From an uncultured Gemmatimonadota bacterium (lineage in GTDB: Bacteria; Gemmatimonadota; Gemmatimonadetes; Gemmatimonadales; Gemmatimonadaceae): a stretch of 64,000 nt of DNA. Numbering within the stretch: position 1 is the stretch's first letter; each line of letters starts with the position of its first letter. A model generated the notes under the pieces. It was given only the letters and a program-made list of their open reading frames with translations. It was not told where the DNA came from and made no database searches. The position numbers were made by a program, and so were the translations under genes. The stretch is from the NCBI GenBank assembly GCA_902826615.1, contig CADEFN010000008.1:169620-233619 (forward strand), in the 5' to 3' direction. This document shows positions 20,456-22,367 of the stretch, piece after piece.

Positions 20456-20527
20456 ATGGGGTCCGGAGAGATTTCCCCCAAGGTAGGTGCGGGGCCGCAT
20501 GCCCGCGAAGGTGCGCCAAGCCAGTGG

Positions 20528-20556
20528 TTGACAACTAGTGCATTATGCACTAGCAT
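20528..20556 (+). promoter_or_regulatory. Strong promoter with embedded palindromic operator (Ro60/Y RNA locus)
   Basis: TTGACA (20528-20533) and TAGCAT (20551-20556) are separated by exactly 17 bases, a near-consensus sigma70 promoter. Between and overlapping them lies a perfect inverted repeat, CTAGTGCAT-T-ATGCACTAG (20535-20553), that fills the spacer and enters the -10 box. A dimeric repressor bound there would block RNA polymerase. Predicted transcription start is about 20563, at the 5' edge of the noncoding RNA. Confidence 0.8.
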
Positions 20557-20562
20557 GATCAT

Positions 20563-20690
20563 GCGTCCGGTGGTGTAGGGGGCGGTTACATCGCAAAGGG
20601 GAGGTTGCGGGTTCGAGTCCCGCCGGTGGCTCGTTTGGCGCCGTAGCTCAATCGGTAGAGCGACCCAGACACCGTCTTCGATTGTTCCCC
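20563..20690 (+). ncRNA. yrlA: Bacterial Y RNA (YrlA-type) with circularly permuted tRNA mimic
   Basis: The parts of a tRNA elbow appear in permuted order. A perfect T-arm (GCGGG-TTCGAGT-CCCGC, 20607-20623) leads into a seven-base acceptor 3' strand (CGGTGGC, 20624-20630). A TCGTTT loop takes the place of the free ends, followed by a seven-base acceptor 5' strand (GGCGCCG, 20637-20643; six of seven positions pair, one of them G-U). Then come U8-A9 (20644-20645) and a canonical D-arm (GCTC-AATCGGTA-GAGC, 20646-20661). U8, A14, G18, G19, A21, T54, T55, C56 and A58 are all present. There is no anticodon arm. Instead, GGTGTAGGG (20572-20580) pairs with CCCAGACACC (20664-20673), eight pairs around a small internal loop, so the RNA ends form the stem where Ro60 would bind. 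The 5' end is taken from the promoter; the 3' end is approximate. It is 170 bases upstream of the Ro60 gene. Confidence 0.78.
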
Positions 20691-20825
20691 GGCGCACGCC
20701 CTCGCTGCGCGCCGCGTCTCGTTGGGAGACGCGCGTGCCCTGGGCTCGAGTCGTACATCTCAATCGGGTGTGTGCGCCCCTTTGCATGGCCTTGACCATG
20801 CGGTCACCGGCAGGGTGTCGGTAGA
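20690..20825 (+). ncRNA. Structured leader or second, degenerate Y-like RNA
   Basis: The stretch between the Y RNA and the Ro60 gene is unusually hairpin-rich. CGGCGC/GCGCCG pair at 20690-20714. An 8-bp hairpin CGCGTCTC-GTTGG-GAGACGCG lies at 20713-20733. A T-loop-like GGGCTCGAGTC follows at 20742-20752. A second exact copy of the D-arm string CTCAATCGG is at 20759-20767, in a possible ACATC/GGTGT stem. A hairpin with TGACC-ATGC-GGTCA at its tip (20789-20811) has a CTTGACC/GGTC pairing that recalls the Ro-binding helix of animal Y RNAs. It may be a decayed second Y RNA or the leader of the ro mRNA. Confidence 0.35.
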
Positions 20826-20860
20826 CAATTTTGCTTCACACGGGGAATGGGTAGTGTGCC

Positions 20861-22177
20861 ATGGTGAGCATCAATGCTTTGAGTGCGCGGATCAAGCGCA
20901 CGTTCGAGGGCGCTGCAGCCGTCCAGAACCTGAGCCCGATCGCGCAGTTGCGCCGCACGGTCTTGTCTTGCCTGCTCTGGGAAGACGAGTTCTATGAGGA
21001 CGGAGTGCAGGTCGCCGATCGACTTTCCGAGTATGCGAGTCGCGTTACCATTGAGGAGCTTTCGGCGCTGGCCATCGAAGCTCGGCATGAGGCGCACCTG
21101 CGTCATGTGCCGCTGCTCCTGCTTGTCACGCTCATCGAAAGAGGTCGTGGCAATCCCGTGGTGGCGCAGACCATCGAGCGCGTGATCTCACGTGCCGACG
21201 AACCCGGCGAGCTGCTCGCGATCTACTGGCGCAAAGGCAAGCGTCCTCTCTCGTCGCAGCTCAAGAAGGGTCTCGCGGCGGCGTTGCGAAAGTTCGACGC
21301 ATATGAACTGGCCAAATATGACCGGCAGCACGCCGTGCGTCTGCGCGACGTGCTGTTCCTCACCCATGCCAGGCCCAAGGATGAGGAGCAGGCCGCTACC
21401 TGGCGCGCTCTCGTCGATGGCACATTGCCGAGCGCCAACACCTGGGAAGCGGCCCTCTCGTCAGGCGAGAACAAGCGTGTCGCTTGGGAGAGGCTGCTCC
21501 GAGGAGGCGCGCTTGGCTATCTGGCCCTGCTGCGCAATTTGCGCAACATGGTGGCGGCCGGTGTCGACGACACACTGGTGCGGAACGCAATTCTCGCGCG
21601 CAAAGGAGCACAGCGAGTGCTGCCATTCAGTTTTGTGGCGGCGGCGCGCCAATGCCCGCAATACGAAGCGGTCCTTGATGAGGCATTGTCGGGCGCTCTT
21701 GACGGAATGACACCGCTGCCGGGGACGACCATCGTTCTGGTGGATGTCTCGGGTTCGATGCTCGAACCTCTGTCCGCAAAGTCGTGGATAAAACGTGTCG
21801 ACGCGGCGGCGGTCCTGGCGAGCATCATTCCCGGAGTGGTGCGAGTGTTCACCGTTTCGGAGCAGATCAAGGAGGTACCTCCGCGACGCGGCATGGCGGG
21901 CGTCGATGTGGTGCTCGCGTCGCAGGGCCATGGCCGCACGATGCTTGGCAAGGCGATGGACGCGATCCGGCAATTCGCTCACGATCGGGTGATTGTGATT
22001 ACGGATGAGCAGTCGCACGACTTCGTGCACCCTCCGGTGGTCTCACGGGCGTACATGATCAACGTGGCGAGTGCCACCAACGGCGTCGGATATGGACGGC
22101 CATGGGTGCATATCGATGGGCTTTCTGAGAACACCCTGAGATTTATCGAAGCGCATGAATCCGGAAGAGCTACGTAG
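20861..22177 (+). CDS. rsr: Ro60/Rsr homologue (TROVE and vWA domains)
   Basis: 438 residues. Residues about 10-280 form the helical TROVE ring that binds Y RNAs and misfolded RNAs; recognisable parts are WERLLRGGALGYLALLRNLRNM (about 209-230) and VLPFSFVAAARQCP. Residues 285-430 are a von Willebrand A domain with an intact MIDAS: DVSGSM (295-300), a threonine near 360 and VIVITDEQS (379-384). It is about 100 residues shorter than human Ro60 (538) or Deinococcus Rsr. In bacteria Ro60 and Y RNA act with polynucleotide phosphorylase or other nucleases in structured RNA decay; that role here is inferred. The gene follows the Y RNA and overlaps a small HTH gene by 23 bases. Codon use looks somewhat less GC-rich than in neighbouring genes, hinting at transfer. 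Confidence 0.93.
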   Translation: MVSINALSARIKRTFEGAAAVQNLSPIAQLRRTVLSCLLWEDEFYEDGVQVADRLSEYASRVTIEELSALAIEARHEAHLRHVPLLLLVTLIERGRGNPVVAQTIERVISRADEPGELLAIYWRKGKRPLSSQLKKGLAAALRKFDAYELAKYDRQHAVRLRDVLFLTHARPKDEEQAATWRALVDGTLPSANTWEAALSSGENKRVAWERLLRGGALGYLALLRNLRNMVAAGVDDTLVRNAILARKGAQRVLPFSFVAAARQCPQYEAVLDEALSGALDGMTPLPGTTIVLVDVSGSMLEPLSAKSWIKRVDAAAVLASIIPGVVRVFTVSEQIKEVPPRRGMAGVDVVLASQGHGRTMLGKAMDAIRQFAHDRVIVITDEQSHDFVHPPVVSRAYMINVASATNGVGYGRPWVHIDGLSENTLRFIEAHESGRAT

Positions 22178-22367
22178 GCTGGCCATCCTCGTAGTCGGCG
22201 AGGCGGGGTGGCAAACCCGCCTCGCTGAGCGTCTGGAGATAGACGCTAGCACGGTCAGACGCTGGGTCTCTGGCGCTGTGCCAATCCCCAATCCGGTGAA
22301 AATCGCGATGCGTTGCCTTGCCGAGAAAGCGGAGCGCGCCTCAGCAGAGCGAAGCGCCAAAGCCTAG
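22155..22367 (+). CDS. Small helix-turn-helix DNA-binding protein
   Basis: 70 residues, starting inside the last codons of the Ro60 gene, so translation is probably coupled. Residues 17-50 (GWQTRLAERLEIDASTVRRW, then VSGAVPIP) form a classic Cro/C1 or YdaS-like HTH. The conserved WVSGAVPIPNPV wing is seen in small phage-type regulators. It is the obvious candidate for the repressor of the palindrome at 20535-20553, which would make the locus autoregulated, but this is inference. A phage-like origin would also fit reports of Ro60/Y RNA pairs in phages. Confidence 0.75.
   Translation: MNPEELRRLAILVVGEAGWQTRLAERLEIDASTVRRWVSGAVPIPNPVKIAMRCLAEKAERASAERSAKA

Follow-up and report, generated by a model that had tools for sequence, protein, structure and literature searches.

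A compact, phage-type Ro60–Y RNA cassette with its own predicted HTH repressor in a Gemmatimonadota genome

Organization of the cassette

The window analyzed here is a stretch of 64,000 nucleotides of DNA from an uncultured bacterium of the phylum Gemmatimonadota. On its plus strand, between positions 20500 and 22400, a promoter that contains a palindrome is followed by a Y RNA gene, a gene for a protein of the Ro60 family and a gene for a small HTH protein. The genes that flank this cassette are directed away from it on both sides. The promoter (20528..20556, plus strand) is sigma-70-like, with the sequence TTGACA-N17-TAGCAT, and was found once, against 0.3 expected in shuffled sequences. Between its −35 and −10 elements lies a perfect 19-bp palindrome, CTAGTGCAT-T-ATGCACTAG (20535..20553), which has the core TGCA-N3-TGCA and is predicted to be an operator. 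This palindrome is single in the 5.9 Mb genome to which the window belongs, even when up to three mismatches are allowed; the reversed pattern, used as a control, gives five matches per strand.

The Y RNA gene (20562..20696, plus strand) was delimited with a covariance model, R1, and the first base of the match (20562) is 6 nt from the end of the −10 element. Its end is separated from the Ro60 start by a 164-nt gap (20697-20860), within which a candidate hairpin is seen at 20707-20738. The Ro60 gene then occupies 20861..22177 and shares its last 23 nt with the HTH gene (22155..22367, also on the plus strand). At an E-value of 0.01, PADLOC-DB 2.0.0 gave no anti-phage defence family for either the Ro60 or the HTH protein, and an anti-phage defence identity was dropped for lack of such a match. 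An earlier, sequence-only reading of this DNA had described a promoter, a Y RNA, a TROVE-vWA gene and an overlapping HTH gene, all of which stand. It had also placed a structured leader at 20697-20860; this part was given up, as the stability of the segment is not clearly above that of shuffled sequence.

The compact Ro60 protein

The Ro60 protein has 438 residues and combines a TROVE helical-repeat region with a vWA domain that carries the MIDAS motif DVSGS. Its assignment to the TROVE family agrees with a Pfam score of 46.2 bits, against a gathering score of 23, with the best stretch at residues 189-262. A confident model predicts a ring of helical repeats joined to a vWA domain with a MIDAS of the form DxSxS. 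The protein had been taken to be unusually short, but 438 residues is the normal size for a large subfamily that is shared with phages. Its close relatives are found in phages, Alphaproteobacteria and Acidobacteria, with 59% identity to the proteins of Xanthomonas phages, and the subfamily also includes Ro60 from Brevundimonas and Caulobacter phages and from the Thermus phage phiLo (9l5y). In structural alignments of Ro60, the window protein is 30% identical to that of phiLo and 17% identical to Rsr.

The RNA quality control associated with Ro60 is best known through human autoimmunity. In this family, Y RNA is bound on the outer surface of the protein, and the ends of misfolded RNA are held in the central hole. 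From family membership, a role in RNA quality control may fairly be inferred for the window protein. What Ro60 and Y RNAs do in bacteria has been studied in very few species and, as of 2020, in Deinococcus radiodurans alone according to one article (PMC7790460).

A distinct class of Y RNA

In the wide sense, a Y RNA has a terminal stem formed from both of its ends and adjoins a Ro60 gene, and both features are present in the window. The terminal stem, P1, is formed by GCGUCCGG (20563..20570), with one bulged U, and by a 3′ strand at 20689..20695; it is backed by covariation and by pairing in the window copy. Next comes an internal loop, recognized from the alignment, with the near-invariant UGGUGUAG on its 5′ side (20571..20578; the first U is bulged) and the conserved GAUUGUUCC on its 3′ side (20680..20688). 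In the window, the final CC of the latter (20687-20688) pairs with GG at 20572-20573. The P2 helix, which is 9 bp long in this copy (20578..20586 with 20671..20679), is again backed by covariation and window pairing, and it leads into a conserved UUAC[UA]UC element (20586..20592; alignment) that reads UUACUUC in the window. The tRNA-like module comprises a T arm (20607..20623), an acceptor-like hairpin that joins the acceptor strands in permuted order (20624..20643) and a D arm (20646..20661). All three show covariation and window pairing, and the T and D arms are also matched by the YrlA model. All of these elements are on the plus strand. Across the class, the anatomy is P1, the bulged U, GG/CC, an internal loop of YGUAG and CGnnUGUU, P2, UUACUUC and, usually, a tRNA-like module.

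Folded alone, the window RNA shows no excess stability over shuffled sequences (z 0.07). The comparative fold, at −45.2 kcal/mol, is not the one that single-sequence folding prefers and lies 6.8 kcal/mol above the minimum of −52.0 kcal/mol. The case for its structure therefore rests on comparison. Among 39 loci (the window and L006-L043), a full copy was chosen by hand in 31, and 26 of these were aligned, leaving out L011, L013, L015, L018 and L019, which have another arrangement. In this alignment, 91.0% of the paired cells can pair, against a shuffled mean of 66.2%, and pairing falls to 41-48% in a control in which the partner is shifted by 1-3 columns. Two-sided changes are observed in 25 of the 29 comparative pairs, P1 having them in 6/6 and P2 in 8/9, and covariation reaches 0.693 against 0.204 in shuffles (sd 0.015). 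RNAalifold, unaided, proposes 30 pairs, 27 of them with two-sided changes, and adds the GG/CC beside the bulged U. In the window copy, 32 of 32 comparative pairs are standard. On these comparative grounds, the relatives and the window reveal a distinct class of Y RNA, with a covarying P1, a near-invariant internal loop, P2 and, usually, a permuted tRNA mimic. A helix of 20560 with ~20790 through a GUCCG/CUUGAC motif, which we take to be eukaryote-like, had also been considered; it is not kept in relatives and was abandoned, and the P1 handle was then found.

The class recurs widely. Searches with R1 covered the 39 loci, with matches accepted to E 0.1, and another 80 viral loci, with matches accepted to E 1e-5. 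Seven of the latter repeat earlier contigs, which leaves 112 loci that are non-redundant by contig only, so that near-identical phages stay in the counts. An R1 match on the same strand and at most 1.6 kb upstream of Ro60 is found in 108 of these 112 compact-Ro60 loci, and in 82 of the 86 that took no part in model building. The misses are L014, where an array lies about 1.6 kb upstream, L099 and L103, where the contig begins at the Ro60 gene, and L130, where a Y RNA copy is just downstream of Ro60. One copy is present in 37 loci, two in 32, three in 23 and at least four in 16, in counts that mix two search thresholds and in which some weak matches may be tRNAs. When seven distant loci were tested with R1, those of a Rhizobium phage, a Microcystis phage and a Haloarcula plasmid were positive, a crAss-like phage and an A. 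silvanus plasmid gave weak matches, and a Streptomyces plasmid (L061) and a fragment from genome G379 (L003) gave none.

Many copies are short: 95 of 264 upstream matches are no longer than 100 nt, and in 19 of the 108 loci every copy detected at the search thresholds applied is under 100 nt. Where short copies were printed out, as cores of about 70 nt, P1, the loop, P2 and UUACUUC are all preserved. Because these parts are retained, they likely form a handle for Ro60 binding.

The tRNA-like head

In most aligned relatives, UUAC[UA]UC is followed by an anticodon-like hairpin, which is missing from the window copy, and then by a variable loop, the T arm, the acceptor hairpin and the D arm, that is, by the order of a circularly permuted tRNA. 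At a fixed position, this hairpin has at least three contiguous pairs in 21 of the 26 copies (1000 shuffles: mean 10.9, largest 19) and at least four in 16 (shuffles: mean 6.5, largest 16). Of the 21 hairpins with at least three pairs, 18 have a loop of 7 nt, with U33 in 15 and a purine at position 37 in 17. By reading, four of the five copies excluded from the alignment seem to be opened at the D loop; two further copies (L034 5810-5952 and L028 5629-5772) resemble unpermuted tRNAs set in the same handle, and copies within one array carry different heads. In the 19 loci with copies under 100 nt only, the head seems dispensable, since such copies are too short for the full tRNA-like module.

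Heads of this kind might point to a different role, in which the Y RNA would be a tRNA decoy or protected stand-in whose head competes for enzymes that cut or modify tRNA, while Ro60 would stabilize it and provide no decay route. The frequency of the anticodon-like hairpin and of U33, the variation of heads within one array and the two copies that resemble unpermuted tRNAs all favor such a role. In addition, Hughes et al. 2020 (PMC7790460) propose YrlA as a possible competitive inhibitor of the anticodon nuclease. However, the window copy has no anticodon hairpin, and in the 19 loci with short copies only, the copies found leave no room for the full module. We consider the decoy role rather unlikely.

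The HTH protein and its predicted operator

The HTH protein has 70 residues, with the recognition helix STVRRW, and is predicted to be the repressor of the cassette. It matches PHROG 3626, a family of unknown function, while its similarity to Pfam YdaS_toxin (PF15943), at 21.2 bits, is under the gathering score of 30. A homologue is encoded just downstream of Ro60 in 8/17 genome loci, 1/17 viral loci and 0/4 named phages or plasmids. Among the 80 further viral loci, 32 have a homologue, which overlaps or closely trails the Ro60 stop in 30 and is 0.5 and 1.1 kb downstream in L082 and L079, respectively.

Presence of the HTH gene goes together with the palindrome. Within 1500 bp upstream, the core TGCA-N3-TGCA is found in 23 of 39 loci with the HTH gene but in only 2 of 70 without it (p 3e-11), a count that omits three loci with less than 300 bp upstream and includes, among the loci without the gene, three with less than 220 bp of downstream DNA, where it may be missed. 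A palindrome of this type was first noticed on visual inspection of five loci, the window being one of them; when these five are removed, the core is present in 19 of 34 loci with the gene (p 9e-10). Eight other palindromic cores, used as controls, occur in 0-3 of the 39. A general palindrome search over about 105 nt before the first Y RNA did not separate the groups, with a score of at least 8 in 6/39 loci with the gene and 6/68 without, likely because the distance of the operator sites varies and hairpins of other kinds score as well.

The identity of the half-site is tracked by the recognition helix. All eight loci with GTGCA half-sites, the window included, have the helix S-[ST]-[VI]-R-R-W, whereas in the TTGCA-type loci the first Arg is replaced by Ser or Trp in 17 of the 17 with the helix in view (L122, one more of this type, has its helix cut short). 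This 8/8 against 0/17 does not represent independent events, because the sequences are related; L068 and L071 are near-copies, and the imperfect sites of L007, L021 and L070 were added by hand. Of these, L007 belongs to Asticcacaulis aquaticus and L021 to Caulobacter endophyticus, both cultured relatives. When 35 loci (7 GTGCA, 17 TTGCA and 11 without the HTH gene) are placed on a Ro60 tree, the GTGCA label requires six changes and the TTGCA label three. As the GTGCA label is scattered, the match of helix and operator is not that of one inherited pair. Contact of an Arg with a G is the standard reading of such a pattern, and the first Arg of the helix would contact the operator G. There are also 11 loci with an Arg-type HTH protein and no recognized operator, including L103, which has no upstream DNA; in a degenerate operator scan, nine of the other ten were within shuffled maxima. 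Over the 14 loci with the HTH gene but without the core that were scanned in this way, L077 (G-type) and L096 (T-type) were above shuffles and twelve were not.

The co-occurrence with the palindrome and the covariation of helix residue and operator base support the proposal, made in the sequence-only reading, that the cassette is self-regulated. Alternatively, the HTH protein might be an activator, part of a toxin–antitoxin pair or a phage lysis–lysogeny switch that travels with Ro60, with the palindrome read by another regulator. The weak similarity to YdaS would suit this, as would the 16 of 39 loci that have the HTH gene but lack the exact core. Set against it are the skewed distribution of the core, the operator base that follows the helix residue, the one single site in the genome and its location between −35 and −10, which suits repression better than activation, and we judge such a non-repressor role improbable.

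Relationship to known systems

The cassette shares with the Ro60/Rsr–Y RNA systems of Deinococcus radiodurans and Salmonella a TROVE-vWA protein with an adjoining Y RNA gene, a terminal stem and a tRNA-like head. It differs from them in its compact Ro60, its RNA handle, its dedicated HTH protein and operator, and the lack of rtcB in the cassette. The latter had been noted from the sequence and was borne out, as the sole RtcB match of the genome is on another contig (C2; the window is on C8). In Salmonella, rsr-yrlBA-rtcBA is controlled by RtcR (PMC7790460), and the two systems are alike in that a single dedicated regulator, predicted in the window, serves both Ro60 and the Y RNA. However, RtcR is a sigma-54-dependent activator (PMC7790460), whereas the window has a small HTH protein and a palindrome in a sigma-70-like promoter.

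The T arm, acceptor hairpin and D arm are common to the window RNA and YrlA (RF02553). The resemblance to YrlA proposed earlier holds for a tRNA-like core at 20603-20661 (model positions 27-81), but the whole match, at 34.7 bits, is below the Rfam gathering score of 69. At Rfam gathering thresholds, YrlA is found in 0 of 13 relative loci, and two copies are called tRNA. At a lax threshold, the YrlA model aligns end to end with copies in L040-L043 (38.8-55.9 bits), from which a common origin of this class and YrlA is likely. In the copies shown, the YrlA terminal stem falls on P2 of the class, and P1 and the UGGYGUAG/CGnnUGUUCC loop are outside the YrlA model. A second YrlA match in the genome (L005) was rejected as a tandem tRNA cluster, by reading.

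That the Y RNA is itself a decayed tandem of tRNA genes, with covariation merely that of ordinary tRNAs, would fit the YrlA and R1 matches on tRNA clusters of the genome (30.6 and 43 bits, respectively, for a cluster on contig C3) but is hardly credible, given that P1 and P2 covary strongly and are absent from tRNAs, that copies of about 70 nt without the tRNA part retain both, and that the window, itself in the R1 seed, scores 114 bits against 43 for the next-best match in its genome.

The phage loci L040-L042 carry the same class of Y RNA as the window. Several Y RNAs are often present in a phage locus; the window, which is part of a bacterial genome contig, contains a single one. We read the cassette as a chromosomal representative of a large class of compact Ro60–Y RNA units shared with phages, in which many units have their own HTH gene.

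Gain of the cassette

In another genome of the same genus (G257, L045), the aminotransferase that flanks the cassette (83% identity over 328 residues) and the downstream protein (62% over 439) are encoded by divergent neighbors. The distance between their likely starts is about 119 bp there, against 1,918 bp in the window. Among the 120 relatives of the aminotransferase that were listed, the five with an organism name are all from Gemmatimonadaceae or Gemmatimonadales, which supports the assignment of the host, likely one of the Gemmatimonadaceae. Ro60 was found in one of the 395 genomes of the phylum that were searched, plus one weak match of 52 residues. Since the flanking genes are adjacent in the same-genus genome, gain of the cassette is likely, and transfer is the simplest reading. 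The suspicion that it had been transferred is thereby strengthened, together with its rarity in the phylum and the relatives in phages, Alphaproteobacteria and Acidobacteria. On the tree, the window Ro60 has a long branch whose position is without support and indicates no donor, and the base composition of the cassette shows no foreign mark.

A proposed mechanism

We consider it probable that the Ro60 cassette of the window is self-contained and of phage type, and that the HTH protein would repress, via the palindrome, one predicted transcript of Y RNA, Ro60 and HTH gene, while P1 would dock on Ro60 and the tRNA-like head would recruit a partner. In this mechanism, an HTH protein seated between −35 and −10 would block the promoter. 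Once repression is relieved, transcription would begin near 20562 and yield a single RNA that opens with 135 nt of Y RNA and continues through Ro60 and the HTH gene, and the presence of the latter in its own repressed transcript would close a feedback loop. Whether excised or retained as the leader, the Y RNA would attach to Ro60 by P1 and the internal loop of the handle and present its head. The partner of the head may be PNPase, to which Rsr is tethered by Y RNA in Deinococcus (PMC7790460), or else a tRNA enzyme or a nuclease; if the Deinococcus precedent applies, a nuclease that acts on structured RNA may be recruited. The output would be the handling of damaged or misfolded structured RNA once stress relieves the repressor.

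A broader possibility can be offered tentatively. In phages and bacteria alike, one Ro60 handle, P1-loop-P2, would be combined with exchangeable tRNAs, which are opened before the anticodon arm or in the D loop, unpermuted and whole, or absent. Arrays are often mixed, anticodon loops look intact, and control would come from a small repressor with a readable helix–operator code. Together, these traits might describe a modular set of tRNA decoys or adaptors that phages carry for use on Ro60, of which the window would be a chromosomal descendant with a single RNA.

For specialists, the likely novelties are the exchangeable heads on one RNA handle and the predicted helix–operator code. No description of this Y RNA class or of the HTH–operator pair was found in the literature covered, including the available parts of PMC7824862, PMC7790460 and PMC7765460, and Chen 2014, Sim and Wolin 2018, Sim 2020, and Burroughs and Aravind 2016 may hold one. 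A compact and widespread class with its own switch would offer a small, tractable system for RNA quality control. Operator and reading helix are predicted to the base, and induction is therefore directly testable, while the exchangeable heads amount to natural experiments on what the head of a Y RNA recruits.

Two further observations concern the relatives. In at least three public phage records, Y RNA copies are annotated as tRNA-Thr, tRNA-Ser and tRNA-Gln, and the class is therefore under-annotated. In Caulobacter-type loci, palindromes are also present just before the Ro60 gene, so that the RNA and the mRNA may be separate units there.

Y RNA arrays and tRNA-like heads

In the Caulobacter jumbo phage CcrColossus, seven matches to R1, the covariance model of the compact-Ro60 Y RNA class, are arrayed upstream of Ro60 (L042, 1812-2919), and eight such matches precede Ro60 in a second, 308-kb relative (L131, 1724-2920). 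The heads differ in both arrays. On a Haloarcula plasmid, a TROVE gene is also preceded by several tandem Y RNA-like matches (L060, 100-2430; top score, 56.6 bits), and because of these, the class may extend to archaea.

Some Y RNAs of this class contain features that public phage records annotate as tRNA-Thr, tRNA-Ser, and tRNA-Gln (L040, 2792-2859; L041, 2811-2885; L042, 2134-2201). At two loci, the handle (P1 stem, internal loop, and P2 helix) appears to hold an unpermuted tRNA, linked via its acceptor end (L034, 5810-5952; L028, 5629-5772). Tandem tRNA genes can be mistaken for Y RNAs in such searches: a tRNA cluster of the window's genome (G000:C3:621-804) yields weak matches to both R1 and the Rfam YrlA model.

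Regulatory elements and neighboring genes

Just 3′ of the window Y RNA is a hairpin without a U run (20707-20738), a possible processing or attenuation site. The HTH protein (22155-22367) matches PHROG 3626, whose function is listed as unknown; the operator results point to repressors of Ro60 units among the members of this family. In Caulobacter-type loci, operator-like palindromes occur upstream of the Y RNAs and also of the Ro60 gene (L006, 370 and 842; L008, 5121, 5297, and 5757).

In Brevundimonas phage Kikimora, a permuted tmRNA model match (57.7 bits) is found ~2 kb downstream of Ro60 (L041, 6386-6731). On a Deinococcus gobiensis plasmid (L043, 1416-4945), the Y RNA and Ro60 are flanked by a transposase on one side and a BrnT/CopG toxin-antitoxin pair on the other.
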